This document shows positions 1 through 18,408 of a stretch of 22,278 nucleotides of DNA, one piece after another. The DNA is from a virus. The stretch spans positions 1 to 22,278 of IMG/VR virus record IMGVR_UViG_3300036715_002972, one strand, 5' to 3'. Both the position numbers and the translations under genes were made by a program. Numbering within the stretch: position 1 is the first letter of the stretch; the number at the start of each line of letters is the position of its first letter. The notes under the pieces were generated by a model that was given only the letters and a program-made list of their open reading frames with translations, made no database searches and had not been told where the DNA came from.

Positions 1-520
1 CTTTATACTTCTTTAAGATTTTCTGATAGTCAAGGCATTCAATAATAACATTTTTTAATCGCTCGTGAATAATCGGTAGCTTATCAATGTTATTAAAAAA
101 CTCTCTAGCGACATTTTTTGTAAAAGTTGGTTTAAATGTTTTTGATTTTGAGTCTCCGACGAAAGACGCATGCAGTTTAAAGTATGTTTTAACTGCCATA
201 TCAACATCACCAAGCTCTTTTACCTCTCCAATTATAACCTCATCTAAAATTTCTTTATGTATTGCTCGTGAGAAGAGTATTCTATTAACTTTTTCTTGGA
301 ATTCGTCAAACTTAAAAGTAGCTACAAAAAATAAATTAGCAATCCTCTTATCATAGTCGTTATAGACCTCTAATTTAGATGGATCCTTATTTAAGAGTAG
401 CTTAGCTGATCCGCCGAACACCTCAACATATACCCTGTGAGGTGGCATAATTTTTAAGAGTTTGTTTAGCATGTAATATTTACCTCCCATATAAGGAAAA
501 AATGATATTTTTCTACTCAC
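1..520 (-). CDS. dam: Dam-type (D12 class) N6-adenine DNA methyltransferase, N-terminal part, cut by window edge
   Basis: Reading leftward from a GTG at 520, an open frame of 173 codons runs off the window. Near the N-terminus it shows the D12-class signature: FPYMGGK (residues 8-14, the SAM-binding motif that opens Dam enzymes), EVFGGSA (33-39, motif I) and EVYNDYD (51-57, an acidic motif that contacts the cofactor). The catalytic DPPY motif would be expected just beyond the edge, so catalytic competence cannot be judged. The family transfers methyl groups from SAM to adenine in DNA, and phages use it to evade restriction or mark their own DNA. A GGAGGT lies 5 nt before the GTG, and the GTGA overlaps the stop of the upstream gene by 4 bases, implying translational coupling. 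No restriction endonuclease is visible beside it. The specificity (GATC or other) is unknown. Confidence 0.85.
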   Translation of the reverse strand, partial: MSRKISFFPYMGGKYYMLNKLLKIMPPHRVYVEVFGGSAKLLLNKDPSKLEVYNDYDKRIANLFFVATFKFDEFQEKVNRILFSRAIHKEILDEVIIGEVKELGDVDMAVKTYFKLHASFVGDSKSKTFKPTFTKNVAREFFNNIDKLPIIHERLKNVIIECLDYQKILKKYK

Positions 521-822
521 AACACACCTCCGATTAAACCGACACTACGGAGTCGTCTCTCTACTAACCTGCCAAAAATAAACTTCTCTTCTTTAGATAG
601 TGAGCGATACCACTCTACCCACCATTTGGGCATTTGCATTACAATTAGGTCAAAGTCTCTTCTATCTCCAGAAGTAATCCCAGACAACTCTTCTTGACTG
701 GGAGGTAGCATACCCATTGCTATCTCTTTTGCTGTGAGATTATCCAACCAAGCATCATGCACCCTTCTCGGCACATAAACACCAATACCTTTTAACCTTT
801 TACCACTAAGTCTGGTAGCCAT
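517..822 (-). CDS. Hypothetical 101-aa protein coupled to the methyltransferase
   Basis: I do not recognise a family. The protein is basic at its N-terminus (ATRLSGKRLKG) and at its C-terminus (VERRLRSVG), with a Trp-rich middle (PKWWVEWYRSL) and a predicted helix SKEEKFIFGRLVERRL. There is no signal peptide or membrane segment. The ATG at 822 follows TTTAGGAGG at good spacing. A sigma-70-like promoter (TTGACT, 17 nt, TAAAAT) lies just upstream at 851-879, so this gene and the methyltransferase may be transcribed separately from the rest of the leftward operon. Its stop overlaps the methyltransferase start by 4 nt, suggesting the two act together, for instance as an accessory or regulatory partner. 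That is inference from position only. Confidence 0.7.
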   Translation of the reverse strand: MATRLSGKRLKGIGVYVPRRVHDAWLDNLTAKEIAMGMLPPSQEELSGITSGDRRDFDLIVMQMPKWWVEWYRSLSKEEKFIFGRLVERRLRSVGLIGGVL

Positions 823-850
823 CTTTTCCTCCTAAACAATTAATAATAAT

Positions 851-879
851 ATTTTACTATAATTTTTTAATAAAGTCAA
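851..879 (-). promoter_or_regulatory. Sigma-70 type promoter for the 101-aa gene and methyltransferase
   Basis: On the minus strand TTGACT (874-879) and TAAAAT (851-856) are separated by exactly 17 nt. The -35 abuts a hairpin (879-900). The sequence between and after the boxes resembles the three tandem promoters near 4.6-4.8 kb, which suggests a shared origin. Confidence 0.6.
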
Positions 880-900
880 GTCGGCAGTAAGATGCCGACT
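879..900. repeat. Intergenic inverted repeat (hairpin)
   Basis: The arms AGTCGGCA and TGCCGACT (8 bp) enclose a 6-nt loop. The hairpin sits between the stop of the 99-aa gene and the promoter of the next gene. There is no long T-run on the minus strand (only CTTGACTTTATT), so it may be a weak terminator, an RNA-processing hairpin or an operator next to the -35 box. Confidence 0.5.
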
Positions 901-909
901 GTTAGTCGA

Positions 910-1209
910 TTAAAGATTAATAAATAAACTCTCTCTGCCAGTCGTGACTTCTAAAATACGATTATCTGTCTGTTTGTCGAAGTCTTCAATAAACCAAATA
1001 TAACCTGCACCAGTCTTGTTAATAAACTTTTTAATTTTAGATAAATCTCTGCCTGTCAATCTAACAGCACCATCACTGCCTGCCTGTTGCAGAGATAGTT
1101 TCTTGCCATTTACATACATATACCACCGAGATAACACCATTATCTCTGCATCCTTGCAATCTTTAATCGCTTTTAAAAAATGCTCGGATAATACTACTCC
1201 ATAAAGCAT
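910..1209 (-). CDS. Hypothetical 99-aa alpha/beta protein
   Basis: No family is recognised. The ATG at 1209 is chosen because TATAGGAGGTG lies just before it. A longer frame from a GTG at 1239 would place that ribosome site inside the coding sequence. By eye the protein reads as two similar halves, each strand-helix-strand-strand: YGVVLS / EHFLKAIKDCKD / AEIMVLSRW / YMYVNGKKLSL, then GAVRLT / GRDLSKIKKFINKTG / GYIWFIEDF / RILEVTTG. That topology resembles one domain of a sliding clamp (see findings), but no sequence identity is claimed. It lies within the leftward operon, followed by a hairpin and preceded by a conserved intergenic element. Confidence 0.7.
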   Translation of the reverse strand: MLYGVVLSEHFLKAIKDCKDAEIMVLSRWYMYVNGKKLSLQQAGSDGAVRLTGRDLSKIKKFINKTGAGYIWFIEDFDKQTDNRILEVTTGRESLFINL

Positions 1210-1232
1210 AACTACACCTCCTATAATTAATA

Positions 1233-1277
1233 ACCCCACTCGGTTCAGATATAAAGGATGCCAGCCGTAGCTGGCAG
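1233..1277 (-). repeat. Class A intergenic element, copy 1 (hairpin plus conserved 17-nt block)
   Basis: On the plus strand this holds CGGTTCAGATATAAAGG followed by a 7-bp stem with a CGTA loop (TGCCAGC/GCTGGCA, 1259-1276). The same block with a different hairpin occurs at 1776-1816 and 2578-2619. Each copy sits between the stop of one leftward gene and the ribosome site of the next. Confidence 0.65.
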
Positions 1278-1290
1278 TTAGTTTTAATAA

Positions 1291-1749
1291 TTAAAAATAC
1301 TCATCCTTAAAAACTTCTATTTTAAAAGTAGTTTTAAAATGACGCTCTTCGTCAGCCACTTCAAAATAACCCTGTTTTAAAGCAAACCTTTTTAAAATAA
1401 GATTAGGTGTGTCAGAGTCGTAAATATGAGTAATAGTTAAAATAACTCTGTCCCCGAAGGTGAGTCCGAAGACATATGCAGAGTCATTGTCAGGGGAAGT
1501 TTCTACAGTTATTTTTACAATATACTGGTCAAGTGTAAGAATGATTGTATCCACTTTACTAACATCTTCCTCCACAGCTTTTAATTGCAGTCGTGAGTCA
1601 ACTGTGAAGAGATAGCCGTCTGTTAGATAAAACACCTTAGAGTCCTCAGGATACGCTCTGTGATAAAACGACTGCACTTCCAAATCAACCGCTCTGCCTT
1701 TAAAGTCCATCAAACCGTCACGCATCTTACACCAAAATTCTAAAAACAT
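1291..1749 (-). CDS. Hypothetical 152-aa protein, beta-rich
   Basis: No family is recognised. The protein is soluble, rich in alternating hydrophobic strands (VFYLTDGYLFTV, DTIILTLDQYIVKITVE, YVFGLTFGDRVILTITHIY, FKTTFKIEVF) and acidic overall, with no signal peptide or membrane segment. It is the longest complete product of the leftward operon. The ATG at 1749 follows TATAGGAGGTAGTAAA, the operon's standard leader. Copies of the class A intergenic element lie on both sides. Its position suggests an early, host-directed role, but the sequence does not show which. Confidence 0.7.
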   Translation of the reverse strand: MFLEFWCKMRDGLMDFKGRAVDLEVQSFYHRAYPEDSKVFYLTDGYLFTVDSRLQLKAVEEDVSKVDTIILTLDQYIVKITVETSPDNDSAYVFGLTFGDRVILTITHIYDSDTPNLILKRFALKQGYFEVADEERHFKTTFKIEVFKDEYF

Positions 1750-1775
1750 TTTACTACCTCCTATAAAAATTTAGT

Positions 1776-1816
1776 CCCACACGGTTCAGATATAAAGGCA
1801 GACTCTAAGTCTGCCT
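1776..1816 (-). repeat. Class A intergenic element, copy 2
   Basis: The conserved CGGTTCAGATATAAAGG block is joined to a perfect 9-bp hairpin (AGGCAGACT/AGTCTGCCT, 3-nt loop, 1796-1816). In the leftward transcript the hairpin comes first, followed by TTTATATCTGAACC. This could be a weak intrinsic terminator or attenuator with a short U-tract, or a processing signal. Confidence 0.65.
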
Positions 1817-1827
1817 GTTAGTTTTAA

Positions 1828-2106
1828 TTAACTTTTTAAATAACTTCGTAGATTATAACCAAATGGATAACAACTGGATAATATTAACAATATCCCAAGC
1901 TTCCACCTCTCATCGTCTGTAAGATTGTCAGTTAATTTTTCTAAATTATACATAATGCAGGTCTTATCTTTTTGATATTTCAGAAATTCGTAAAGTGCAT
2001 CGCCGATACTCTCTTCATTATCCACCAGCTTATCCAACTGACGGATATCCTGTTTTAACTCTTTAATAAGATCTTTTAAATCTTCCTTGCTAATTACTGC
2101 AGACAT
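1828..2106 (-). CDS. Hypothetical 92-aa helical protein
   Basis: No family is recognised. The protein is almost entirely helical: a charged heptad-like N-terminal half (SKEDLKDLIKELKQDIRQLDKLVDNEES), then DALYEFLKYQ and a hydrophobic C-terminal helix (RWKLGILLILSSC) ending in YNLRSYLKS. The C-terminal third resembles that of the 115-aa product at 3074-3421 in pattern (charged residues, G-x-LL-x-LS, then a Leu-spaced tail), so the two may be distant paralogues. The start is supported by TATAGGAGGTAGTGTT immediately upstream. The coiled-coil character suggests oligomerisation or binding to a host protein, which is inference. Confidence 0.7.
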   Translation of the reverse strand: MSAVISKEDLKDLIKELKQDIRQLDKLVDNEESIGDALYEFLKYQKDKTCIMYNLEKLTDNLTDDERWKLGILLILSSCYPFGYNLRSYLKS

Positions 2107-2143
2107 AACACTACCTCCTATAAATTTTTATTAAGGGGATCTG

Positions 2144-2204
2144 CCCCTATTAAACAATCTTTAAAAGATTGTTTAATAGGGGACCCAGTCAGAGTCTGAC
2201 TGGG
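2144..2204 (-). repeat. Class B intergenic element, copy 1: 39-nt perfect palindrome plus 21-nt palindrome
   Basis: Two 19-nt arms (2144-2162 and 2164-2182) pair perfectly around one central base, and a second perfect 10-bp palindrome follows at 2184-2204 (CCCAGTCAGA/TCTGACTGGG). Related elements lie at 3457, 3877 and 4247. Relative to 3457 this copy has C instead of T in the left arm and the matching G instead of A in the right arm, so pairing is preserved. Confidence 0.75.
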
Positions 2205-2215
2205 GGATAGTTTAA

Positions 2216-2551
2216 TTAAGTTAATAAATACGACTTACTACCAAACACAAACTCGTATTTAACATCGCAAGGTAGCTCATATTTTATAATTACCAAATCA
2301 GGTAGCCTGTATCGTGATAACAGAAAGTCGGAGTATGTATCTTTTAAACTTTCTATTATACTACGAGTCAGCTGAACTGAAGGAAACTCTACACCTTTAT
2401 AAACCACACTTAAAGGCATGACCCAACTGTCTCTATCCCCAATTACTCTAATTTTGCCATCGCTCACATAAAGGATGCCTGACTCCCTGACAGTTGCTTC
2501 TAACATTCTAAAAAAGTCTAAGACCTCTTCCTCTGGAATTCTTACTAACAT
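2216..2551 (-). CDS. Hypothetical 111-aa protein, paralogue of the next upstream gene
   Basis: The protein begins LVRIPEEEVLDFFRML and closely parallels the 113-aa product at 2631-2972 (shared LVRIPEE, a VMPL stretch near residue 44, a VEFP stretch, a D-L-x-I-I strand and FVFGS-x-SY at the end), so the two are tandem duplicates. By eye the order is strand-helix-three strands, then strand-helix-three strands. The N-terminal stretch (R-I-P, amphipathic helix, then LYVSDGKIRVIGD) is reminiscent of the first repeat of PCNA/beta-clamp domains. This is only a structural suggestion and no function is established. The ATG follows AAAGGAGGTAGTAAT. Confidence 0.7.
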   Translation of the reverse strand: MLVRIPEEEVLDFFRMLEATVRESGILYVSDGKIRVIGDRDSWVMPLSVVYKGVEFPSVQLTRSIIESLKDTYSDFLLSRYRLPDLVIIKYELPCDVKYEFVFGSKSYLLT

Positions 2552-2577
2552 ATTACTACCTCCTTTTTAAAATTAGT

Positions 2578-2619
2578 CCCACAAAGGTTCAGATATAAAG
2601 GCAGACTCTGAGTCTGCCT
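2578..2619 (-). repeat. Class A intergenic element, copy 3
   Basis: The AGGTTCAGATATAAAGG block is followed by a perfect 10-bp hairpin with a single-base centre (AGGCAGACTC/GAGTCTGCCT, 2599-2619). It is nearly identical to copy 2, with a changed but still complementary hairpin tip. Confidence 0.65.
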
Positions 2620-2630
2620 GATGTATTATA

Positions 2631-2972
2631 TTAACCTACCTCATATGAATTACTACCAAATACAAAATCAAACTTAAACCTGTCGGATCCTTCGTATCTA
2701 AAATAAAATATAATTAAATCTGTGAGTCTGTGTTTTGAAAATAGACAATCAATATAAGCCTTTTTTATACCTTCAATGTCAGCATGAGTTAATAGCATCG
2801 GGGGGAACTCTACATCCTGATAAAAGTATCCCAGTGGCATTACACCCTTGTCCTTGTCACCCTTCACACTCACACGGCCACAACTGATATAAAGAGTGCC
2901 AGTTTCTTTAATAGCCGAGTCCAACATTTTAAAAAATGCTAATACACTTTCCTCTGGAATTCTTACTAACAT
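2631..2972 (-). CDS. Hypothetical 113-aa protein, paralogue of the 111-aa neighbour
   Basis: It starts LVRIPEESVLAFFKML and ends FVFGSNSYEVG, aligning along its length with the 111-aa product at 2216-2551. Many core positions have diverged, so the duplication is old or the pair evolves fast. The predicted order is the same double strand-helix-strand pattern. It has no motif, signal peptide or membrane segment. The ATG at 2972 is preceded by TATAGGAGGTAGTGTT. Duplicated, diverging small genes in an early phage operon often target host or rival-defence proteins, but this is not shown here. Confidence 0.7.
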   Translation of the reverse strand: MLVRIPEESVLAFFKMLDSAIKETGTLYISCGRVSVKGDKDKGVMPLGYFYQDVEFPPMLLTHADIEGIKKAYIDCLFSKHRLTDLIIFYFRYEGSDRFKFDFVFGSNSYEVG

Positions 2973-3037
2973 AACACTACCTCCTATAGATTTTTATTTG
3001 AGTGCTAAACTTACTATAAAATAATCTTAACAAGAGT

Positions 3038-3058
3038 CCCTGCCAGAGTCTGGCAGGG
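3038..3058 (-). repeat. Intergenic hairpin
   Basis: A perfect 10-bp palindrome around one base (CCCTGCCAGA/TCTGGCAGGG) lies downstream of the 115-aa gene and is related in sequence to the GC hairpins of the class B elements. In the leftward direction it is followed by ACTCTTGTTAAG, with no clear U-tract. Confidence 0.6.
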
Positions 3059-3073
3059 AGTTTGATAACCTAA

Positions 3074-3421
3074 TTAAAACATTTCTAAAAATTCTTCTAA
3101 GTCAGATGCTACGGATCTACGCTCGCTTAAATACACTAACATACAGCCGATTTCAAAATACTGTTTCAAACCACCGCTGACTAAAATCTTTTTTATAGCT
3201 TCGATTAAGTCAAACCTCTCCCTATCATAAAAGTCCTCAAGATGTAAATAGTCACCTAATAACCTCTCTGCTATTATCTCTCCAGAGTCCCTCTCTTCTA
3301 CCTCTTCCTCTCCACCGTCAGCCTGTGAGTCAGATACTTCTTCCTCTTCATTGAAAATGAGATCGTCCAACCATTCAAGCTCTCTCATTACGTCCTCAGA
3401 GATTTCCTTCCAGTTTACCAT
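3074..3421 (-). CDS. Hypothetical 115-aa acidic helical protein
   Basis: No family is recognised. The protein is strongly acidic: residues about 15-50 are dominated by Glu and Asp (for example FNEEEEVSDSQADGGEEEVEE). Helical segments follow (EIIAERLLGDYL, FDLIEAIKKILVSGGL, YFEIGCMLVYLSE, SDLEEFLEMF). Acidic surfaces of this kind occur in phage DNA-mimic inhibitors, but the lack of a recognisable fold makes that only a possibility. The C-terminal third resembles that of the 92-aa product at 1828-2106. The ATG at 3421 follows ATAGGAGGAAGTGTT. Class B palindromes lie upstream of it, between it and the preceding gene. Confidence 0.7.
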   Translation of the reverse strand: MVNWKEISEDVMRELEWLDDLIFNEEEEVSDSQADGGEEEVEERDSGEIIAERLLGDYLHLEDFYDRERFDLIEAIKKILVSGGLKQYFEIGCMLVYLSERRSVASDLEEFLEMF

Positions 3422-3456
3422 AACACTTCCTCCTATTTTTAAATTTGAGGCAGTCG

Positions 3457-3513
3457 CCCCTATTAAATAATCTTTAAAAGATTATTTAATAGGGGGCCCT
3501 GCCAGGGCAGGGC
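3457..3513 (-). repeat. Class B intergenic element, copy 2
   Basis: A perfect 39-nt palindrome (arms 3457-3475 and 3477-3495, single A centre) is followed by a GC-rich hairpin (GCCCTGCC/GGCAGGGC, 3496-3513). A shared lead-in, AAATTTGAGGCAGTCG, precedes it on the plus strand and recurs in copies 3 and 4. Confidence 0.75.
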
Positions 3514-3520
3514 TGTATAA

Positions 3521-3838
3521 TTACTCAATTGTTATATCCCACGCACCCCCTTTTATTTGTAAATAAACAACCTCGATGCCGTATTTCTTCCAGTTTTTTA
3601 AATGTTTTAATAGCTTTTTAACATTATCTACCCGCTCTCTTAATAATAAATCACTGTCAGAGATTTCTACATTTAAACATTCTTTTAAAATATCATTTTC
3701 ACTTTTAACAGAAAAACATAACTCCCCGCCTTTCAAATTAATGTCCACCCATTGCTCGGTAGCCTCTTTTTTAAATCTTTTTAGAAATTTTTCTACCGCC
3801 GGTATAAACTCCCCGATGTTAATTTTTACCTTTACCAT
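3521..3838 (-). CDS. Hypothetical 105-aa protein with clamp-like internal duplication
   Basis: No sequence family is recognised. By eye the order is VKVKINI (strand), GEFIPAVEKFLKRFKK (helix), EQWVDINLKGG, ELCFSVKSE and CLNVEIS (strands), then DLLLRE, RVDNVKKLLKHLKNWKK (helix), IEVVYLQIKGG and AWDITIE (strands). The two halves repeat one strand-helix-strand-strand unit, the arrangement of a single sliding-clamp domain. The length of 105 aa is close to one clamp domain and far short of a whole clamp. The ATG at 3838 follows TAGGAGGACTGTGTT. Its neighbours are equally small early genes. The fold assignment is a hypothesis for structure prediction to test. Confidence 0.7.
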   Translation of the reverse strand: MVKVKINIGEFIPAVEKFLKRFKKEATEQWVDINLKGGELCFSVKSENDILKECLNVEISDSDLLLRERVDNVKKLLKHLKNWKKYGIEVVYLQIKGGAWDITIE

Positions 3839-3876
3839 AACACAGTCCTCCTATTTTTAAATTTGAGGCAGTCGCC

Positions 3877-3930
3877 CCTATTAAACAATCTTTTAAAATT
3901 GCTTAATAGGAGCCCCGCCAGGGCAGGGCT
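3877..3930 (-). repeat. Class B intergenic element, copy 3 (degenerate palindrome)
   Basis: The same lead-in and GC hairpin as copies 2 and 4 are present, but the long palindrome (3877-3910) has mismatches and a base missing from its right arm. It is the only decayed copy of the four. Confidence 0.6.
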
Positions 3931-3950
3931 TGTTTGATAGCTTTTAATTA

Positions 3951-4211
3951 TTAATAAACATCAATATAAACATCTAAATAATCATTTTTTAAAATTAAAG
4001 ATTTGCTATTGCCTACCAGCCAGCCATTTATCCACAATCTACCATCTTTAATTTCAAATTCTAATTTGATAACAGAGTCCGATTTTTCTAAAGCTATAAT
4101 TTCTAAATAAAACCTCTCTTCACAAATCACCAACTTACCATAACCATAAACTTTAAAGGATCCTGTTTGATAGCATAACTCTGTGCCAGTTTGATAGATT
4201 GTAATAACCAT
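3951..4211 (-). CDS. Hypothetical 86-aa beta-strand protein
   Basis: No family is recognised. The protein is made almost wholly of short alternating strands (MVITIYQTG, SFKVYGYGKLVICEE, RFYLEIIALEK, VIKLEFEIKDGRLWINGWLVG, LILKNDYLDVYIDVY), as in a small beta-sandwich or barrel. It shares a strand-turn pattern (E-x-KDGRLWING versus E-x-FKDFLTING) with the 81-aa product at 4321-4566, so the two could be distant relatives. The ATG follows TAGGAGGAAGTGTT, and the gene is flanked by class B elements on both sides. Residues 1-20 contain an imperfect internal repeat, YQTGTELC / YQTGSFKV. Confidence 0.65.
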   Translation of the reverse strand: MVITIYQTGTELCYQTGSFKVYGYGKLVICEERFYLEIIALEKSDSVIKLEFEIKDGRLWINGWLVGNSKSLILKNDYLDVYIDVY

Positions 4212-4246
4212 AACACTTCCTCCTATTTTTAAATTTGAGGCAGTCG

Positions 4247-4302
4247 CCCCTATTAAATAATCTTTAAAAGATTATTTAATAGGAGCCCCGCCAGGGCAGG
4301 GC
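4247..4302 (-). repeat. Class B intergenic element, copy 4
   Basis: Palindrome arms 4249-4265 and 4267-4283 pair perfectly, and a GCCCCGCC/GGGCAGGGC hairpin follows. The plus-strand lead-in and the tail TTGTTTGATAGC are shared with copy 3, showing that these intergenic blocks were duplicated as cassettes. Confidence 0.75.
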
Positions 4303-4320
4303 TTGTTTGATAGCTTTTAA

Positions 4321-4566
4321 CTATTCTTTATATGCATATATACCACCCCCGTCTATTTGGAGTCGGAGTTCGTCTTCCACCCGCATGCCATTGATTGTTA
4401 GAAAATCTTTAAAGATTTCTACTTCATAGTCACCCCATGCATCAGTGGCCGTAAATTCTAACACCCAGCCCTTTAGTTTCAACTGGCATCCATTGGTGGT
4501 ATTAAAGTCCATCAATGGTGTAATGATGAAAATTTGATCCTCTGACAGTCCTACAAATAGCTTCAT
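4321..4566 (-). CDS. Hypothetical 81-aa protein, first gene of the leftward operon
   Basis: No family is recognised. The protein is small and beta-rich (LFVGLSEDQIFIITPLMDF, CQLKLKGWVLEFTAT, YEVEIFKDFLTING, LRLQIDGGGIYAYKE). It is the promoter-proximal gene of the leftward cluster. Its ATG at 4566 follows AAAAGGAGGCTTGCT, and the nearest of three tandem promoters lies about 45 bp upstream. It should therefore be among the first and most strongly expressed genes of the operon. No function can be assigned. Confidence 0.7.
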   Translation of the reverse strand: MKLFVGLSEDQIFIITPLMDFNTTNGCQLKLKGWVLEFTATDAWGDYEVEIFKDFLTINGMRVEDELRLQIDGGGIYAYKE

Positions 4567-4607
4567 AGCAAGCCTCCTTTTAAAATTGATTTTAATTTAT
4601 TACTATA

Positions 4608-4636
4608 ATTATATACTAAAATTTTTAAAAAGTCAA
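4608..4636 (-). promoter_or_regulatory. Leftward promoter PL1 (nearest to the operon)
   Basis: TTGACT (4631-4636) and a consensus TATAAT (4608-4613) on the minus strand are separated by 17 nt. Transcription would start near 4601 and enter the 81-aa gene after a leader of about 35 nt. Confidence 0.8.
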
Positions 4637-4701
4637 GTCTTTTATTGCATATTTTTTATGCAATTTTTAATTTTCATATTCAATTTTAATTTATTACTAT
4701 A

Positions 4702-4730
4702 ATTATATACTAAAATTTTTAAAAAGTCAA
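4702..4730 (-). promoter_or_regulatory. Leftward promoter PL2
   Basis: Second repeat unit: TTGACT (4725-4730), 17 nt, TATAAT (4702-4707) on the minus strand. Confidence 0.75.
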
Positions 4731-4794
4731 GTCTTTTATTGCATATTTTTATGCAATCTTTAATTTTCATATTCAATTTTAATTTATTACTATA

Positions 4795-4823
4795 ATTATA
4801 TACTAAAATTTTTAAAAAGTCAA
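4795..4823 (-). promoter_or_regulatory. Leftward promoter PL3
   Basis: Third repeat unit: TTGACT (4818-4823), 17 nt, TATAAT (4795-4800) on the minus strand. Confidence 0.75.
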
Positions 4824-5000
4824 GTCTTTTATTGCATATTTTTTATGCAATCTTTAATTTTCATATTCAATTTTAATTTATTACTATAATTATATACCAT
4901 TTAAAAATAAAAATCTATGATCCCCATCATATTTTTTAAAAAGCAAATTAAAAAACAATTTTATATTTATTTTAATATTCTAATAAAGCAAATAATATAT

Positions 5001-5150
5001 CAAATGTATATATTCTAATATTATATCAAATGTATATATTCTAATATTATATCAAATGTATATATTCTAATATTATATCAAATGTATATATTCTAATATT
5101 ATATCAAATGTATATATTCTAATATTATATCAAATGTATATATTCTAATA
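5001..5150. repeat. Six tandem 26-bp direct repeats (iterons)
   Basis: CAAATGTATATATTCTAATA begins at 5001, 5027, 5053, 5079, 5105 and 5131, with an exact 26-bp period. The array is bounded on both sides by the same flank, TTCTAATAAAGCAAATAATA. There are no unique spacers, so this is not CRISPR. Iteron arrays of this size bind replication initiators or partition/repressor proteins. Confidence 0.85.
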
Positions 5151-5219
5151 AAGCAAATAATATATTTATTACTTTATTTTAATAATGTATTTAACTATAT
5201 TTTTATTGAAATCTTAAAA

Positions 5220-5830
5220 TATGCTAATTTATCAAACACTTATTTAAAATCATTGATAAATAAGCTTTATTTAAAAAGACATTGATAAATAACTATTTTT
5301 TATAAATCATTGATAAATTAATCTTTTTTAATACCTATCAAATGCTTATAAAATCGTGTTTTTATGTATTTTATGGTGTCATTATGGTTATTTTATGGTG
5401 TTTTTATGGTTATTTTATGGTGTTTTTATGATTAACTAATCATTGATATATAAAGAAAAAGTAATTAAATCATTGATAAATCACTATTTTTTAAAGCATT
5501 GATAAATTAGCATTTTTTAAGCTTTTATGGTTTTTACAATTATGTAGAAATTATGCTCCCCCTACCCTATATATTAACTATAATTAATAAATTTATATAC
5601 TTATGAAAATGATATATCTATATATAACACCATAAAATAAAAATCTTAAATCTAAAAAATAGCTATTTATCAATCACTTAAAAAATAGCTATTTATCAAT
5701 CACTTAATTAAAAATAACTATTTATCAAATACTTAAACACCATAAAAACACCATAAAAACACCATAAAAACACCATAAAAACACCATAAAAACACCATAA
5801 AAACACCATAAAAACACCATAAAAGGATCC
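5220..5830. repeat. Dyad-organised array of ATTGATAAAT and 11-bp-phased ACCATAA boxes
   Basis: The left half has forward ATTGATAAAT boxes (5251, 5280, 5308, 5441, 5471, 5497) and six TTATGGT-type boxes at 5371, 5382, 5393, 5404, 5415 and 5426. The right half has the inverted forms: ATTTATCAAT-type boxes at 5665, 5691 and 5720, then eight CACCATAAAAA units at 5738-5825 with an 11-bp period. The centre, near 5575-5600, is pure AT. The 11-bp phasing places every box on about the same face of the helix. Confidence 0.8.
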
Positions 5831-5843
5831 TATATTAAAATCT

Positions 5844-5932: not shown

Positions 5933-6013
5933 TTGGCTTGGTTTTGGCTTGATGTAAAACCGCCACAGCCAGGCTTCGCTCTCTCCCTACCGCTCATAAA
6001 AAATCTTAATTTC

Positions 6014-6217
6014 CTATGGTAGCCTATAACCATAACTATTAAAAGGTAATACCTTACTCCATCTATCTTTACACCTATCCGTTATTCTGAAAAATATCTC
6101 CGTATAGCCATTGTCTATCAACGCTTTCCAGCCATCAAAAATGCATTCTAATGGTATATACGCATCTAATATTCCGCCGTAAAAGTGTAAAACAGAATAA
6201 GCTTTCTCTTTACACAA
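6014..6217 (-). CDS. Doubtful small gene, 67 aa
   Basis: This is an open frame in less AT-biased DNA between the two repeat zones. The product reads like a real small protein (SVLHFYGGILDAYIPLECIFDGWKALIDNGYTEIFFRITD, broken here by normal strand-helix-strand spacing). However, the only available start is TTG at 6217, with just a weak TTAGAG before it and no GGAGG, unlike every other gene here. It may be a real gene whose promoter lies in the 6226-6530 box array, or a remnant. No family is recognised. Confidence 0.4.
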   Translation of the reverse strand: MCKEKAYSVLHFYGGILDAYIPLECIFDGWKALIDNGYTEIFFRITDRCKDRWSKVLPFNSYGYRLP

Positions 6218-6578
6218 CTCTAATTTTATGATTACTTTATGGTGATTTTATGGTTAGCAAACACTAACCATAAAAATTAAGTAATTGATAAATAATGCTT
6301 TTAATATAGATTTTATGTTTTTATGGTTAAAATATACTCTTACTTTTCTATATATTTATATACTATATATGAGTATATAACACTCACATCTATACTATAT
6401 AAATATATACAGTAATAAGAATAAATTAATCATAAAACCATAAAAATTTAAGCAAAGGTGTTATTTATCAATACCTTAGATTTTATGGTTAGCAAACACT
6501 AACCATAAAGTAATCATAACCACACCATAAAATTAAAAGTGTGATATAATATTTAAAACGCTATAGGAGGTGTAAGGT
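6218..6578. other. Second dyad box region upstream of thyX
   Basis: No gene is present in these 361 bases. TTATGAT/TTATGGT boxes at 6226, 6237 and 6248 (11-bp period) end in a palindrome TTATGGTTAG-CAAACA-CTAACCATAA (6248-6273). A second copy of that palindrome (6483-6508) continues into inverted boxes whose CAT cores lie at 6504, 6515 and 6526, again 11 bp apart. Between them are an ATTGATAAAT (6284), an ATTTATCAAT (6463) and a TATATA-rich centre. The last box covers the position where the thyX -35 would sit. Confidence 0.75.
6542..6550 (+). promoter_or_regulatory. Extended -10 promoter of thyX
   Basis: TGATATAAT is an extended -10 (TGn before a consensus TATAAT at 6545-6550). At -35 spacing (6522-6527) there is no TTGACA but an ACCATAA box, so activation or repression through the box protein is plausible. 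The leader to the ATG at 6579 is only about 20 nt. Confidence 0.6.
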
Positions 6579-7487
6579 ATGTTATTAAATCATTTTTCTA
6601 TTGAGGATTTTAAAGATACATTCCCGTTAGCTACTATCGGTGCAAGAGTTTGTTATTCTCAAAGAGATATTGATGAGCTTTTAAATGAGAGTTATATGAC
6701 TGATAAACAAAAAAGAGCGAATTTCTTATCTAAGCTTTGTAATGATAAACACTTCTCTGTATTCTCCCATTCCTTTAGATATAAATATGTTGGAGAAAAT
6801 AACGCATTACGCATTGGTGCTACTCATTTTAAATCTCGCTATAATCCTGTATATCAAGGTGTTATAGGTATATCCTTAAGGCATTATTTAGAAGAGTTGC
6901 TTAATACAAACCCAGAGCAATTTCAAAACGAGATTAAACAACTTGCGGAATATGACACCCAAATAAACATTGTCGGTAAAGTATCACAAGTTAATTTAAA
7001 ACAAAAAGGTCAAGATATTAAAGTTTATTTACTTCATATAAATACTAATTACGATGGCTATGCTGTATTCTATATTGACGGTATAAGCAGGATAGCAACG
7101 CATCAACTTATTAGACACTCAACGCTTAACTTTTCACAAAGAAGTCAAAGATATGTAGCGGAAGATAATAATTACACTATAACACCAGACTATATTTTAC
7201 TTAATAAAGATGCGAAAGAAAGGGCGGAGCTACACGATAAACTCTCAAAACTTCTTTACAAAGATTTGGTTTATAAATACAATATCAAAAGAGAAGATGC
7301 GAGATACTTTTTACCAGCTGGAGCTAAGACATCAATTATAGTGTCTGGAACATTAAATTGGATTAAAGATTTTATAGATAAAAGAAACACACCGCACGCT
7401 CAATGGGAGATTAGAGATGTTGCAAGAATGATGCAAGAAGCGGTTGATTATTACTTTGAGCTTAAGTGGGGTGTAAAATGGATATAA
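6579..7487 (+). CDS. thyX: Flavin-dependent thymidylate synthase ThyX
   Basis: ThyX makes dTMP from dUMP using methylene-tetrahydrofolate, FAD and NADPH. Recognisable family parts are ARVCYSQRDID (22-32), SVFSHSFRY (60-68), YIDGISRIATHQLIRH (165-180), the signature stretch continuing STLNFSQRSQRYV (181-193), EDARYFLPAGAKTS (239-252) and the C-terminal PHAQWEIRDVARMM (272-285). At 302 aa it is longer than the usual 210-260; much of the extra lies around residues 95-160, before the signature. The canonical signature is RHR-x7-S-x-R; here the third residue is Ser (R179-H180-S181), which is unusual. The start is fixed by TATAGGAGGTGTAAGG. The next gene overlaps its end by 10 nt. A Tmk gene lies convergently downstream, completing a dTMP-to-dTDP route. 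Confidence 0.93.
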   Translation: MLLNHFSIEDFKDTFPLATIGARVCYSQRDIDELLNESYMTDKQKRANFLSKLCNDKHFSVFSHSFRYKYVGENNALRIGATHFKSRYNPVYQGVIGISLRHYLEELLNTNPEQFQNEIKQLAEYDTQINIVGKVSQVNLKQKGQDIKVYLLHINTNYDGYAVFYIDGISRIATHQLIRHSTLNFSQRSQRYVAEDNNYTITPDYILLNKDAKERAELHDKLSKLLYKDLVYKYNIKREDARYFLPAGAKTSIIVSGTLNWIKDFIDKRNTPHAQWEIRDVARMMQEAVDYYFELKWGVKWI

Positions 7488-7864
7488 AACTATTAGAAAG
7501 GAAGTTTAAAGAAATTTTAGATCCGATAGAAGAGGTAGAGCTTTATTACGACTATTTTGCTGACTTAGGGACTTGGCATGTTTATTGGCTTCATTATAAA
7601 GGCTATACTCATCTCCCCAGAATAAATGTTTACAGATCTGATAAAGACGGTATGCGATTAATAGATATTAGCACTATCACAGAAACTTTTCTTAATGAAA
7701 AAACAAAAATACCAACTGAAATAATAATTATAAAATTCTGGGAAGCTATACTTTCAGATTTTAATATAATAACTATACAAACAAGAAAAAACACTTGCTT
7801 TAAAATGCGGGAGCAGTATCGCTTTACAATTAAAAGGAAGCTTGACAAACAAGATAGTAAGTAG
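7478..7864 (+). CDS. Hypothetical 128-aa protein co-transcribed with thyX
   Basis: No family is recognised. The ATG at 7478 overlaps the end of thyX by 10 nt, with GGGGTG as its ribosome site. An in-frame GTG at 7466 is also possible (132 aa) but would place the GGGGTG inside the gene. The product is soluble, with an amphipathic N-terminal helix (IKLLERKFKEILDPIEEVELYYDYF), a Trp-rich strand region (TWHVYWLHYKGY), helix FWEAILSDF and a basic C-terminus (YRFTIKRKLDKQDSK). Its last codons contain the -35 box of the promoter at 7842-7870. Coupling to thyX suggests a role in nucleotide or DNA metabolism, by context only. Confidence 0.7.
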   Translation: MDIKLLERKFKEILDPIEEVELYYDYFADLGTWHVYWLHYKGYTHLPRINVYRSDKDGMRLIDISTITETFLNEKTKIPTEIIIIKFWEAILSDFNIITIQTRKNTCFKMREQYRFTIKRKLDKQDSK

Positions 7865-7870
7865 TATAAT
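7842..7870 (+). promoter_or_regulatory. Full-consensus sigma-70 promoter of a candidate small RNA
   Basis: TTGACA (7842-7847), exactly 17 nt, then TATAAT (7865-7870): both hexamers match consensus perfectly. The 13 nt from the -10 onward (TATAATATTTAAA) are identical to the thyX promoter. No gene follows on this strand before the terminator at 7919-7953, so it should produce a short RNA. Confidence 0.8.
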
Positions 7871-7876
7871 ATTTAA

Positions 7877-7953
7877 AGCTTCATAGCTTATTACTCCTTC
7901 CTTACACCCTCCTATAATAACTCCATCTGACTAAACCTCAGGTGGAGTTTTTT
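7877..7953 (+). ncRNA. Candidate antisense small RNA complementary to the thyX ribosome-binding site
   Basis: The predicted RNA of about 77 nt has three parts: a 5' hairpin AAGCT-TCAT-AGCTT (7876-7889), an open pyrimidine-rich stretch with two anti-Shine-Dalgarno runs (ACTCCTTCC and CCCTCC), and an intrinsic terminator hairpin with six Ts. Positions 7900-7916 (CCTTACACCCTCCTATA) are complementary to all 16 nt of the thyX leader 6562-6577, with one bulged C. The CCTCCTATA portion also matches the TATAGGAGG of four leftward leaders (near 1209, 1749, 2106 and 2972). No coding frame of note lies in it on either strand. It could alternatively be only the 3' UTR of the thyX mRNA. Confidence 0.55.
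7919..7953 (+). terminator. Intrinsic terminator of thyX operon and small RNA
   Basis: A 12-bp stem, AACTCCATCTGA / TCAGGTGGAGTT with one G-T wobble and a 7-nt loop, is followed by TTTTTT on the plus strand. The right arm overlaps the last codons and stop of the convergent tmk gene. There is no T-run in the minus direction. Confidence 0.85.
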
Positions 7954-8483
7954 AAAAATTTCTCAACAATACCCCAAGCATGATTTTTACTCTTAACATA
8001 ATAAACATTGTCAACTATAGCATCAATCATATTATAACATCTCTTCACTTTTCTTAAAAACTTAGCATCTACTTCTTCACCCCTACTCTTAACTCTATTT
8101 AAACAAATTGCAAAAGGTGTTGAAGGGATTAAAATTAAATCAGGTTTTTTCCATTGGGGATAATATTTGTTGTAGATTTGTAGGAGTTTTTTACAGTCTT
8201 GTTTTTCGCAATTTTCAATTTGATAGCAAATAGTAGAAGGATAATACCTATCACTTATTACAACATATCCAGCATTTATTAACCTATCTATTCTTTGGCT
8301 ATATGAAACTCTTTCATTACAAAAATCTTCAAACAGCATAGAAGCTATCTCTGGAAACTTATCCATTTCTTCTAACCATTTTGTATTTTCTTTTATTAAA
8401 ACTGAATTAGGTATTTTTTCTGCAATATATTTAGCAAGTGTAGATTTACCACTTCCATCTACTCCTTCAACTACAATAAACAC
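7938..8483 (-). CDS. tmk: Thymidylate kinase (dTMP kinase)
   Basis: The product of 181 aa phosphorylates dTMP to dTDP. The P-loop GVDGSGKST is at residues 7-15, the DRYYPST motif at 78-84 (dTMP kinase DRY motif), and the lid R-V-K-S-R-G-E-E at 130-137. It is slightly shorter than typical bacterial Tmk (about 200-210 aa) because of a compact C-terminus. The start is a GTG at 8483, with AAAGGAGTT upstream. The gene faces thyX and shares its terminator region. The first codon abuts the -35 of a rightward promoter (8484-8512), so transcription of tmk and of the late genes would interfere. A TATAAT (8510-8515, minus strand) could serve as the tmk -10, although no good -35 is seen. Confidence 0.88.
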   Translation of the reverse strand: MFIVVEGVDGSGKSTLAKYIAEKIPNSVLIKENTKWLEEMDKFPEIASMLFEDFCNERVSYSQRIDRLINAGYVVISDRYYPSTICYQIENCEKQDCKKLLQIYNKYYPQWKKPDLILIPSTPFAICLNRVKSRGEEVDAKFLRKVKRCYNMIDAIVDNVYYVKSKNHAWGIVEKFLKNST

Positions 8484-8512
8484 TTGACAACTCCTTTATA
8501 AAGATGTATATT
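8484..8512 (+). promoter_or_regulatory. Rightward promoter for tail and lysis genes
   Basis: TTGACA (8484-8489), 17 nt, TATATT (8507-8512). Transcription would start near 8519 and enter the 47-aa gene at 8541. The -10 overlaps the opposing TATAAT of tmk. Confidence 0.75.
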
Positions 8513-8540
8513 ATAGTATATCATACTTTAGGAGATTGTA

Positions 8541-8684
8541 ATGCCAAAAAAGTTGGAAGATTGTGTTAAAAAAGTAATGACGCAAGGTAAATCAAAATCA
8601 GAAGCATATTCTATATGTTCTGAAAGCACTGGATATAAAAAAGCTAAAGGTAATAAGTGGAAAAAAGAAAAAGGAGGTAAATAA
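8541..8684 (+). CDS. Small basic 47-aa protein
   Basis: A short gene with a good site (TAGGAGATTGTA before the ATG), ending 2 nt before the next gene. The product is rich in Lys, with the stretch EDCVKKVMTQGKSKSEAYSI (6-25), resembling small basic phage proteins that carry a C-V-K-x-V-M-x-x-G-K-S-K-S-x-A-Y motif. The C-terminus is a run of basic residues (KKAKGNKWKKEKGGK). Nucleic-acid binding or a minor virion role is plausible from its charge, and neither is shown. It is the first gene behind the 8484 promoter. Confidence 0.7.
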   Translation: MPKKLEDCVKKVMTQGKSKSEAYSICSESTGYKKAKGNKWKKEKGGK

Positions 8685-8686
8685 TA

Positions 8687-9388
8687 ATGGGTTATACTTC
8701 AGCACCGTTTAATCCATCAAACCCTTATCCAAACCAAGTTGCAACAGAATTAAATTTAGCTAATCAAAATTTTACAACATTGGCTCAAGCATTCTTAAAC
8801 AATGACCCTTCTTCTGGAGTAATAAAAAGTAGTGTTTATACTTTCAGAAGAGTAGATTTAACTAATGCTACAAGTGATTATATGTTGCAGGTTGGAGAAG
8901 AAGCTATAATTAGATTTGATAGTCAACCACTTGTTAACCTTAGAGTTGCTATGCAGGAACCTGCTGACCCTCACAATCCAGCAATTTATAATATTATTAT
9001 AGGTATTTATAAAGCTTCTGATGGTAATATTGATTTTGACTTTTTCCCAAATAATACGACTTACTCTAAACAAATACAAACTTTTGGATTTCATAACTCC
9101 ACTGCTGATCTTTCAAATTTTTATAATGCAACAGCAGAAAGATTTTGGATTGATACTTATGGAGGTGCGGATAATTACCCATGGTTTGCTAATATGTATG
9201 CTATTTATTATGGTTCACAATATCAAAAAGGGTTATATGGTATTGCTAATTCTAATCCTTCAGTATGTATATTTTCAGGCACTTGGACTGATACATCAAC
9301 AGCTTGGACTTCATTAGGGAGTTTTAGAGTGTATCCATCGGAAACTGTATATACGTCAGGAATAGCTTTAGTAAGGAGGGTAGCGTAA
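8687..9388 (+). CDS. Putative tail fibre or appendage protein
   Basis: A 233-aa protein with no signal peptide. Its N-terminus (NPSNPYPNQVATELNLANQNF at 10-30, split here as NPSNPYPNQ and VATELNLANQNF) and the following TTLAQAFLNNDPSSG resemble the opening of phage tail-fibre and neck-appendage proteins, which define the axis of a trimer. The rest is Asn/Ser/Thr/Tyr-rich with short strands and glycine turns, typical of receptor-binding structural proteins. The start follows AAAGGAGGTAAATA. It is followed after 1 nt by a fibre-associated gene. Receptor binding is inferred from composition and neighbours, not from a definite domain hit. Confidence 0.6.
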   Translation: MGYTSAPFNPSNPYPNQVATELNLANQNFTTLAQAFLNNDPSSGVIKSSVYTFRRVDLTNATSDYMLQVGEEAIIRFDSQPLVNLRVAMQEPADPHNPAIYNIIIGIYKASDGNIDFDFFPNNTTYSKQIQTFGFHNSTADLSNFYNATAERFWIDTYGGADNYPWFANMYAIYYGSQYQKGLYGIANSNPSVCIFSGTWTDTSTAWTSLGSFRVYPSETVYTSGIALVRRVA

Positions 9389-9389
9389 T

Positions 9390-9971
9390 ATGAAAGTATG
9401 GGCTTATATAAATTCTCAAACTAATACTTTGTGTTGTGCTTTATTTCCTGAAGCTGTTCCTAATAATGTTAAAGCTATAGAGTTAGAAGTAGAAAATCCT
9501 TCTGATGTTGTTATTGATAATGGTTCAATTAGAGTTAAAACTGATGCAGAAAAATTAGCAGAAGCTAAACAAAAAACTATTGATGAATTATCACAAAAAG
9601 CTTCTGCATATATTTTTAGATATTATCCAGATTTAAAACAGAAGAGTGATGTATCAGATAAAGAAAATGGAGAAAGTTATTTAGCATACAAAGGGTTTGA
9701 TGTAATTTCAATTAGGAAAGATATAACTTCTTTAATACTTTCTAACACAGATTTTCATACTGCTTTAAATAATTTAAATCAAAAATACAATTCAAATAAT
9801 GATACTATGATTGCTTATTGGCTTTCACAAGTTCTAAAAGTTGGGTATAGGCAATATTTTGTGTTTCAAGTTAAACAAGAATACGGAGCATACTTACAAC
9901 AAATTCAACAAGCTACTTCTTTACCATTACAAGAATTTGAATTTAAAACACCGTTCCCACAATTACCATGA
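9390..9971 (+). CDS. Putative tail-fibre-associated protein, 193 aa
   Basis: The N-terminus (MKVWAYINSQTNTLCCALFPEAVP) and the linker VKTDAEKLAEAKQKTIDELSQ (50-70) look like the small proteins that follow fibre genes in many phages, where a strand-rich head is joined to a long helix (DUF4376-like or assembly-protein style). Residues 60-190 are mainly helical with many Gln. The ATG at 9390 follows AAGGAGGGTAGCGTAAT, inside the previous gene's end. The next gene overlaps by 4 nt (ATGA). Its role is probably tail assembly or fibre attachment. Confidence in the exact family is low. Confidence 0.55.
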   Translation: MKVWAYINSQTNTLCCALFPEAVPNNVKAIELEVENPSDVVIDNGSIRVKTDAEKLAEAKQKTIDELSQKASAYIFRYYPDLKQKSDVSDKENGESYLAYKGFDVISIRKDITSLILSNTDFHTALNNLNQKYNSNNDTMIAYWLSQVLKVGYRQYFVFQVKQEYGAYLQQIQQATSLPLQEFEFKTPFPQLP

Positions 9972-15503: not shown

Positions 15504-15888
15504 CAATCTTGTAAAGAAAGAAGATGTAGAGCAAGTAGTTAAAGAGAAAGCTACTCTTAAGTTTTCACAAGAAGAAATAACTAACTACGCTACACATAGA
15601 CAAATTGAAGATTTAGAGACGGCAAGAAAAATATTACTTCAAGCCTATATTCAAGCTGAATTACTTTATAATGATGCCGATATGTTTTCTAAAGTTAAGA
15701 ACCCTGCAAGAACTATGACTGAATTATTACAGACAAAGATAATGATTGCAGATAAATTAGCTTCTTTATCCAATGCTACGGATAAACTAAAACCAAAAAA
15801 AGAGCAGTTATCTACTCCTTTAATTAATATAAATATAACAACACAAAAGTCTATCGAAGACTTTATAGAAGTTGAGGTTGAAGATTGA
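15478..15888 (+). CDS. Helical 136-aa protein, possible terminase small subunit or head protein
   Basis: It overlaps the ATP-grasp gene by 26 nt, with TTGGAGGACTGCTATA before the ATG. It is helical throughout, from VKKEDVEQVVKEKATLKF to DLETARKILLQAYIQAELL and LLQTKIMIADKLASLS, then a tail of alternating hydrophobics LININITTQKSIEDFIE. Size and helix content fit phage terminase small subunits, which recruit DNA to the large subunit. No helix-turn-helix is obvious, and TerL is three genes away, so the assignment is weak. Confidence 0.5.
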   Translation: MNLPNLVNNNLVKKEDVEQVVKEKATLKFSQEEITNYATHRQIEDLETARKILLQAYIQAELLYNDADMFSKVKNPARTMTELLQTKIMIADKLASLSNATDKLKPKKEQLSTPLININITTQKSIEDFIEVEVED

Positions 15889-17066
15889 ATATAAACACAA
15901 CTAAATCAACTCCTTCATTTGTAGATTATGTTATAGATGAAGTAAAATGTGATAACACAGCTTGGGTTTATAAATTTACAACTTCTTGGAATGATTGTAA
16001 TTCTTGGGGAGCAAATACTTATTTTTCAATAAAAGCACAAGTTTATGAGTTTAATATAGAATTCTTACCTAAAGATACAAAGTTTAAATTTCTTCCTTAT
16101 GTTAAAAGTTATACTCCTGAAATGTTTTCAAGTTTTGTTTTTAATAGAATAGAAAGACCCGCCATAAATGTCAAGGATTTTATAGTAGGTGATACATTTA
16201 CACTTAACCAAGATATTAATAACACTACTTTAAAATTTTATTTAAGTCCTGATATTAAATTAACAAAATCAAGTGTATTAAATAAATATAGAGTATTTTT
16301 CTCAAGAGTTTTATATTCTATATCTATACATGGCGAATGTATTACTCGTGGGTATAGATATATAAATCCTTCCTTTAACTTTTCTACTAAACTACAAACT
16401 AATATTTATGCAGATAGATATATAAATCCTTTTATAGATTTTTCTTTATATAGTTTAGTTTATGTTTATCCTAATTGTAAAGCTACTTATTGGAGTAGAA
16501 AATTTAATGTTTGGAAAGATTGTAATGTATGGAGTTTTAATTGCAATGTAGATTTTTGGACTGGAAAACCTGATGTCTGGAAATATTGTGATATATGGGA
16601 CACAAATTGTAAAACAACATATTGGTATGGAAAGTTTGATGCTTGGAGAGATTGTGGTATATGGAGTTCAAGTTGTGGAGCTACTTCTTGGCTTGGAATG
16701 TTTAATGAATGGAAAGACTGTAATAATTTAGGTTCAGTTTGTAAAGCGACTTATTGGAGCGGAAAACCTGACGAATGGGAAGATTGTAATGTATGGAGTT
16801 TAAGCTGTGATAATACATCGTGGATTGGTAAGTTTAATAAATGGAATGATTGTAATGTATGGAGTGTAGGTAGTAAAGAGACTTATTGGGGCGGAAGACA
16901 CGATGTATGGAATGATTATTATGTATGGAATTTAAGCTGTAAAATGAAAGATTGGGAAGGAAGATTTGATGATTGGGGCGATTGTAGTATATGGGATTTA
17001 GATTGTAAGACAACTTCTTGGATTGGAAAATTCATTGTTTGGGGAGATTGTAAAATATGGAGTTAA
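15885..17066 (+). CDS. Trp/Cys-rich tandem-repeat structural protein
   Basis: A 393-aa protein. Residues about 22-44 hold one divergent repeat (CDNTAWVYKF, then WNDCNSW). Residues 45-197 are beta-rich. Residues 198-393 are nine tandem repeats of 22 residues with consensus C-x-x-T-x-W-x-G-K-F-x-x-W-x-D-C-x-x-W-S followed by two variable residues. Repeat 7 has lost both Cys, and repeat 4 has lost its third Trp. The DNA of the repeats has diverged while the W and C pattern is kept, which shows selection for the pattern. The regular period suggests a stacked beta-solenoid or a disulfide-stapled fibre. It overlaps the previous gene by 4 nt and the next by 10 nt. Related W-D repeats occur in phage tail proteins, so a tail or surface role is the best guess. 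Confidence 0.7.
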   Translation: MNINTTKSTPSFVDYVIDEVKCDNTAWVYKFTTSWNDCNSWGANTYFSIKAQVYEFNIEFLPKDTKFKFLPYVKSYTPEMFSSFVFNRIERPAINVKDFIVGDTFTLNQDINNTTLKFYLSPDIKLTKSSVLNKYRVFFSRVLYSISIHGECITRGYRYINPSFNFSTKLQTNIYADRYINPFIDFSLYSLVYVYPNCKATYWSRKFNVWKDCNVWSFNCNVDFWTGKPDVWKYCDIWDTNCKTTYWYGKFDAWRDCGIWSSSCGATSWLGMFNEWKDCNNLGSVCKATYWSGKPDEWEDCNVWSLSCDNTSWIGKFNKWNDCNVWSVGSKETYWGGRHDVWNDYYVWNLSCKMKDWEGRFDDWGDCSIWDLDCKTTSWIGKFIVWGDCKIWS

Positions 17067-18229: not shown

Positions 18230-18408
18230 ATATAATACAAGGTAAGAAAGGTAAAAAAGTAAAAGTAAATCAAGGTGTTGTTATATATGTTAAATCAGAT
18301 AATTCAGTTCAAGGGGAATTAGTATTAAATGAGAAAGTTATTGACATATCGGATTTTTCTGTTATAATAGTATTATCGGAGGTTGATAAACAATGGCAAC
18401 AACTTTAA
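18220..18408 (+). CDS. Small 62-aa protein, beta-rich
   Basis: A short product (GVNIIQGKKGKKVKVNQGVV, then strands VIYVKSDNSVQGELVLNEKV and FSVIIVLSEVD). The basic N-terminus and small barrel-like strand pattern resemble minor virion proteins, but no family is recognised. Its ATG lies within the end of the propeller gene and its end overlaps the next gene by 16 nt. The last third of the gene contains a strong promoter (18341-18368). Confidence 0.6.
   Translation: MGVNIIQGKKGKKVKVNQGVVIYVKSDNSVQGELVLNEKVIDISDFSVIIVLSEVDKQWQQL
18341..18368 (+). promoter_or_regulatory. Internal promoter upstream of the terminase region
   Basis: TTGACA (18341-18346), 16 nt, TATAAT (18363-18368): both hexamers are consensus. 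It lies inside the 62-aa gene, about 25 nt before the next ATG, and would boost expression of the 122-aa protein, terminase, scaffold and capsid. Confidence 0.7.

Follow-up and report, generated by a model that had tools for sequence, protein, structure and literature searches.

A candidate phage small RNA with a predicted anti-SD stretch complementary to a class of early-gene leaders

Introduction

Most phage antisense RNAs known to block ribosome-binding sites have a single target. The sar RNA of P22 and the c4 RNAs of P1 and P7 each block ant, a message of the phage that encodes them, with c4 acting around the ribosome-binding site, and the 6S RNA of lambda is also named amongst phage RNAs (PMC12197685). 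NfeR1 (alpha-r14) of Sinorhizobium meliloti is a trans-acting, Hfq-independent RNA in which unpaired CCUCCUCCC motifs block several ribosome-binding sites (PMC10746234). With regard to viruses, Pyrovirus is described as having Aquificae hosts, a lytic lifestyle, opposed early and late blocks, a PolA-type polymerase, a thymidylate kinase, a terminase, a portal and a capsid protein, and genomes of 37-42 kb; word searches of the main text of that description find no mention of promoter, terminator, small RNA or ThyX (PMC7689252).

The window considered here is the whole stretch of DNA that was analysed, a virus record of 22278 bases with approximately 31 % G+C. A first-pass annotation had placed at 7842-7953 a small RNA that represses thyX, and possibly early genes, late in infection. 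Below, this locus is compared with that of a relative, and its candidate targets are evaluated.

Genomic context of the candidate RNA

The window encodes a terminase, a capsid protein, a thymidylate kinase (tmk) and a flavin-dependent thymidylate synthase (thyX), as identified using Pfam, along with a portal-like connector identified using PHROGs. Terminase, capsid, tmk, connector and opposed blocks, with replication on one strand and structural genes on the other, resemble the layout and gene content given in the published description of Pyrovirus; polA lies outside the window and is present in two relatives, G001 and G008. The phage appears to be a virus of heat-loving bacteria. Small, leftward genes of early type occupy the left of the window (517-4566), and from 6579 onwards most genes run rightward.

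The divergent A+T-rich region at 4939-5840 harbours arrays of a 26-nt repeat (4991-5172) and 11-nt AAACACCATAA iterons (5735-5833; inverted copies at 5369-5440), and GC skew around it is negative leftward and positive rightward; this region is probably the replication origin. Before the early operon, positions 4578-4897 contain tandem repeats of approximately 93 nt, three of them with a leftward TTGACT-17-TATAAT promoter, and G001 also has tandem perfect early promoters. Most of the early intergenic regions (822-4321, minus strand) are built from a G+C-rich hairpin, followed by a ATCTGAACCnnGnGGG- or CCTATTAAAnAATCTTTTAAAGATT-like motif and then the SD. Similar units occur in the early intergenic regions of G001, and they may form a second layer of early regulation.

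On the rightward side, a TTGACA-17-TATATT promoter at 8484-8512, kept in G001, overlaps the start region of tmk and drives the late block. A perfect promoter at 18341-18368, lying within the end of ORF 18220-18408 and ahead of the gene at 18393, is an obvious late-gene promoter, with a perfect or near-perfect counterpart at the same place in those relatives that cover the region. The putative structural protein encoded at 15885-17066 displays many short W/C-rich repeats (e.g. CKATYWSGKPDEWEDCNVWS) in its C-terminal half, and is amongst the least conserved late proteins in the relatives.

A predicted small RNA gene at 7842-7953

The thyX gene (6579-7487, plus strand; Pfam Thy1, E = 2e-35) is followed on the same strand by an ORF of 128 aa (7478-7864), which has no match in Pfam or PHROGs and whose 3′ end contains a sigma-70-type promoter at 7842-7870. 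This promoter has the full consensus that had been claimed for it (TTGACA-17-TATAAT, 12 of 12 positions). The window holds two such perfect promoters against a mean of 0.047 in shuffled sequence, with chance expectations from shuffling ranging from 0.03 to 0.09 per genome.

Taking the start to be 6-8 nt past the -10 element, the predicted transcript is a non-coding RNA of approximately 77 nt (7877-7953, plus strand). Structural prediction bears out the three elements originally noted, namely a 14-nt 5′ hairpin (AAGCT-TCAT-AGCTT, 7876-7889), an unpaired C/U-rich stretch of approximately 29 bases (7890-7918) and a strong intrinsic terminator (7919-7953), the last consisting of a 12-pair stem (7919-7949) followed by U6. 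The fold has a minimum free energy of -19.2 kcal/mol (z = -5.4), with none of 200 shuffled sequences being equally stable; the terminator was missed by a simple terminator scan and recovered by folding. Within the open stretch, which would serve as the targeting region, lies the octamer CCTCCTAT (7908-7915).

The segment had been described as containing no gene, which holds for its middle and fails at its edges. At the 5′ edge, the final codons of ORF 7478-7864 are overlapped by the -35 element and spacer of the promoter; at the other edge, the terminator shares its 3′ arm with the final codons of tmk (7938-8483, minus strand; Pfam Thymidylate_kin, E = 1.5e-18), which is convergent with the RNA and has its stop codon within the terminator hairpin. 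Similarly, TATAATATTTAAA is indeed common to this promoter and that of thyX, whilst the suggestion that the one arose by duplication of the other is unsupported, because the relative G001 does not share TATAATATTTAAA.

Several other roles for the segment were considered. A coding role for the RNA is ruled out, as no start codon with a ribosome-binding site lies inside it, and so is a small gene on the minus strand, where the frames comprise just 3 and 7 codons. Pyrimidine-rich RNA is a poor R-loop former, and a function as replication primer is less likely because the RNA is of this type and the iteron arrays lie elsewhere, at 5.0-5.8 kb. Comparison to Rfam families gave no hit to the small RNA at gathering scores. 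An RNA gene at 7842-7953 is likely to exist, and with its own promoter and terminator, both kept in one relative, it would give an independent transcript.

Conservation in a related phage

The relative G001 (IMGVR_UViG_3300035661_000134) is 41880 bp in size and apparently complete, as its ends overlap by 71 bp. Its ThyX is 62-64 % identical to that of the window phage and its Tmk 75 %, and in both phages the two genes converge in the same order. G001 has no counterpart of the 128-aa ORF; instead, TTGACA-17-TATAAT (L002:2383-2411) lies directly at the end of thyX and is followed by ATTCCATAGCACCTCCTATCCAATACACCCCCTCCCGCCCCGCCTGAGTTTATTCAGGCGGTCTTTTT. The promoter in this genome encodes the final ThyX residues, LDRKINQCYNIP, which are unlike the ThyX C terminus in the window.

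The G001 RNA, at approximately 60 nt, lacks the 5′ hairpin and is predicted to fold (z = -4.2) with a C-rich stretch left open ahead of a terminator, with the equivalent hairpin at L002:2451-2479; tmk is again convergent with the RNA, and its stop codon likewise falls within the terminator hairpin. In the predicted folds of both RNAs the C-rich anti-SD motif CCUCCUAU is unpaired. Promoter and architecture are kept between the two phages, whilst the upstream gene is a different one and the RNA sequence has for the most part diverged. Because the unit of promoter, unpaired anti-SD stretch and terminator recurs at the same place despite these changes, comparative sequence analysis lends good support to a small antisense RNA gene. 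The unit occurs at this tmk-side position in only two genomes, the window phage and G001. A search of the phage collection with positions 6000-9500 returned no nucleotide relatives, and a tmk alignment search found G001 plus remote kinases and nothing else.

Complementarity to the thyX leader

The leader of thyX, TATAGGAGGTGTAAGG (6562-6577, plus strand), is the best-pairing leader within the window. As originally reported, positions 7900-7916 of the RNA (CCTTACACCCTCCTATA) are complementary to the whole of this 16-nt leader, forming 16 pairs with one bulged base. Duplex prediction against all 31 leaders of the window, a check that had been suggested at the outset, places thyX first with a modelled energy of -24.3 kcal/mol. 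Unconstrained shuffles of the unpaired stretch match the thyX pairing in 2 of 20000 cases; retaining CCUCC raises this number to 39, and retaining CCUCCUAU to 254, again of 20000 each; if any of the 31 leaders is allowed as the target, shuffled stretches do as well in 10 of 400 cases. The pairing with thyX therefore exceeds what the anti-SD core alone predicts, but is not overwhelming on its own.

Complementarity to early-gene leaders

The first-pass annotation had also listed four leftward genes with TATAGGAGG leaders able to pair with the RNA. These are real, and three further leaders carry AATAGGAGG. All seven precede early genes on the minus strand: 910-1239 (start codon at 1209; leader TATAGGAGGTGTAG), 1291-1749, 1828-2106 and 2631-2972 (leader TATAGGAGGTAGT in each), 3074-3421 and 3951-4211 (both AATAGGAGGAAGT), and 3521-3838 (AATAGGAGGACTG). 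Of the nine occurrences of the octamer CCTCCTAT in the window, one is in the RNA and the others lie in antisense within these seven early leaders and that of thyX. In G001 there are 14 occurrences, comprising the antisense of 12 early leaders, the RNA and a single coding site. By sequence, the candidate targets of the RNA are encoded elsewhere and would be bound at the ribosome-binding site, with seven early genes plus thyX in the window phage and 12 early genes in G001.

This distribution reflects a leader class, ATAGGAGG(TG), which is found in 7 of 10 early genes in the window, a set that is only part of the early genes of this phage, and in 1 of 21 others, namely thyX. For G001, ATAGGAGG leaders precede 12 of 24 early genes and none of the 27 others, and the RNA of this phage is an exact match to the leader sequence ATAGGAGGTG, which 11 of 24 early genes and none of 27 late genes have. 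Early genes make up most of its best partners, and two of them form 13 exact pairs (ATAGGAGGTGCTA; ORFs 3269 and 6778). One 10-mer of the G001 RNA fits 11 of the 24 early leaders, a result reached by 30 of 20000 shuffles that keep CCTCC. The corresponding early-class match in the window is weak by itself, being equalled by 1273 of 20000 such shuffles. What had been a secondary suggestion, that early genes are targets, is the one that the second genome favours, in that complementarity to the ATAGGAGG(TG) leader class is conserved there at the level of sequence.

Modelled at 70 °C, the RNA beats the 16S tail by approximately 3-6 kcal/mol on the early-type leaders tested and on thyX, and by approximately 0-1 kcal/mol on most late leaders. 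The late leader at 9390 in the window is an exception and pairs well (-18.0 kcal/mol at 37 °C and -11.0 kcal/mol at 70 °C). Part of the early preference of the RNA is just due to strong SDs, because early leaders of G001 also pair better than late ones with the plain 16S tail.

Search for further candidates

In a second relative, G008 (31668 bp), the sole perfect promoter (L022:9908-9935) lies between leftward replication genes and is followed by GATAACCTACCGCCTCACCTCCAAAG and a hairpin. The region L022:9908-10010, with CCTCACCTCCAAAG and the hairpin behind the promoter, possibly specifies a third anti-SD RNA; in the candidate transcript (L022:9936-10010) the hairpin has a weak U tract. A 12-nt complementarity links its ACCTCCAAAGTT to the leader of a gene for a 951-aa primase-helicase, a match that is only weakly better than those of shuffled sequences (equalled in length by 131 of 5000 and in energy by 33 of 400). 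This third candidate RNA is weaker than the other two, and is offered as a lead only.

A virus-wide scan for a promoter followed by CCTCCTAT recovered 31 stretches, against 36 for a composition-matched control motif, and a terminator followed in 4 of 25 unique cases for CCTCCTAT and 2 of 23 for the control. Across viruses, anti-SD motifs are accordingly not enriched in general between a promoter and a terminator, and there is no sign of a widespread class of such RNAs. An unrelated phage contig has a consensus promoter, CACCTCCTATAG and a strong terminator in non-coding DNA (L040:2236-2362), a similar layout that is perhaps due to chance.

Alternative explanations

It was considered whether the promoter and terminator together form an attenuated late promoter, in the manner of lambda pR′-6S RNA-tR′, with the RNA as a by-product and an antiterminator later permitting readthrough into the late genes. 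Lambda makes a short RNA by this route, from the strong pR′ promoter with a terminator behind it near the late genes, and in both phages studied here a strong promoter and terminator stand just before the rightward late block. Despite this, readthrough would traverse tmk in antisense, the late block is served by a promoter of its own (8484-8512, also in G001), and no antiterminator was identified, although many ORFs are unassigned. The arrangement would also leave the complementarity to early leaders unexplained, and this explanation is unlikely.

That the RNA represses thyX specifically, and nothing else, would agree with the first place of thyX amongst 31 leaders, its 16 pairs with one bulge, the rarity of equals amongst CCUCC-fixed shuffles (39 of 20000) and the fact that the RNA would cover the entire short leader. 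The window thyX leader is, however, simply an early-type sequence. G001 retains the RNA gene beside thyX, yet its thyX leader, CTATCGGAGGTGT, has diverged from the RNA and ranks only 23rd of 51, with a pairing energy 7-10 kcal/mol less favourable than that of the best early leaders. The thyX-specific targeting first proposed is thus not conserved, and covariation of leader and RNA, the absence of which in relatives had been named beforehand as speaking against the idea, is not seen in G001. Exclusive repression of thyX is therefore doubtful.

A similarly doubtful possibility is that the minus strand of the segment is a leftover intergenic unit of early type (hairpin plus TATAGGAGG) in reversed orientation, and that the anti-SD stretch is merely its mirror image. 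Early intergenic regions share the order of hairpin then ATAGGAGG leader, and in both phages the minus strand reads SD then ATG, opening frames of 3 and 7 codons. Such a relic does not predict the perfect outward promoter and the terminator that frame the segment in both phages, nor a changed flanking gene around a kept promoter. As an account of where the RNA gene came from, a reversed early intergenic unit is a serious alternative, and may be correct.

Less probable still is host shut-off, with the RNA imitating the anti-SD tail of the 16S rRNA in a general way and acting on host messages. The G001 RNA contains CACCUCCU, as does the 16S tail, and any strong SD would be bound by it; the AUA-GGAGG extension, on the other hand, fits phage early leaders and would add nothing against ordinary SDs. 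Queries of genome contigs with thyX and terminase gave no matches.

Finally, an ordinary convergent terminator beside a chance promoter, with no functional RNA, is very improbable: convergent genes do often share a terminator and the C-rich stretch could be a Rho site, but both phages have a perfect promoter at this position despite their different upstream genes, and this, along with the early-leader match in G001, makes a chance arrangement unlikely.

Proposed mode of action

The favoured reading is that of a phage-encoded, trans-acting antisense RNA that would block translation of a class of early-type leaders, which in the window phage includes thyX; from the sequences compared, we place its probability at approximately one in two. 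Host-type RNA polymerase would start at the perfect promoter and stop at the terminator, which overlaps the end of tmk. The open middle of the RNA, with its extended anti-SD CCUCCUAU, could then pair with early (replication-side) leaders, thyX being the strongest in the window phage, and by covering the AUAGGAGG ribosome-binding sites of these messages would keep ribosomes off. Early messages would be the more sensitive because, thyX apart, only they carry AUA before GGAGG, and it is by virtue of this AUA that the RNA could out-compete the 16S rRNA tail on them; late messages, without the extension, would be less affected. A possible consequence is negative feedback, in which rising genome copies would raise the copies of the RNA gene and so lower early translation, with late genes spared.

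Promoter, fold, conservation of the unit in one relative and the match to the early-leader class are read directly from the sequences, whilst transcription, pairing in vivo, repression and timing are inferred. With regard to timing, the proposed action late in infection is unsupported: the promoter looks host-type, as do the early and late promoters of both phages, and because these look alike it is uninformative in this respect. More tentatively, hyperthermophilic Aquificota viruses might use a self-encoded anti-SD RNA, tuned to the leader shared by their early operon, as an early-to-late translational switch or copy-number feedback, with the targeting stretch being remodelled time and again to keep pace with the leaders of the individual phages.

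If the favoured reading is true, a whole class of early genes would be addressed via a shared leader, forming a simple, RNA-only regulon switch that works at hot-spring temperatures in viruses without a cultured representative. It also suggests a search rule for other phages, namely a perfect promoter, then the unpaired reverse complement of the early SD of that phage, then a terminator.

Comparison with known systems

Lambda 6S resembles the present locus in its strong promoter, terminator and nearby late genes. Unlike in lambda, a separate promoter serves the late genes of the present phages, the intervening tmk is in antisense orientation, and an anti-SD is part of the RNA. As is predicted here, the short sar and c4 RNAs of phages base-pair with a phage message and so prevent its translation, but they act on a single target, ant, in temperate phages, whereas the RNA described here has many distant leaders as candidate targets and the genus that its phages resemble is described as lytic. 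Nor is it cis-encoded in the manner of sar and c4, as the RNA (7877-7953) lies approximately 1.3 kb from the thyX leader on the same strand.

The likeness to NfeR1 is that of a trans-acting RNA with an unpaired C-rich anti-SD directed at several messages, here by sequence only, and by analogy the mode of action would resemble that of NfeR1. NfeR1 is, however, bacterial and carries its motif in the unpaired regions of three hairpins, whereas the present RNA is phage-encoded and has it in an open linker. The alpha-r14 arrangement of three hairpins, each with an unpaired CCUCCUCCC, is not found, with both fold and motif being different, and membership in the NfeR1 family is excluded by the predicted fold. 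Unlike in NfeR1, the anti-SD of the phage RNA is extended to match a leader class of the phage. The RNA would therefore best be viewed as a putative new form of the known anti-SD regulatory RNAs, one that is phage-encoded and matched to an early leader class.
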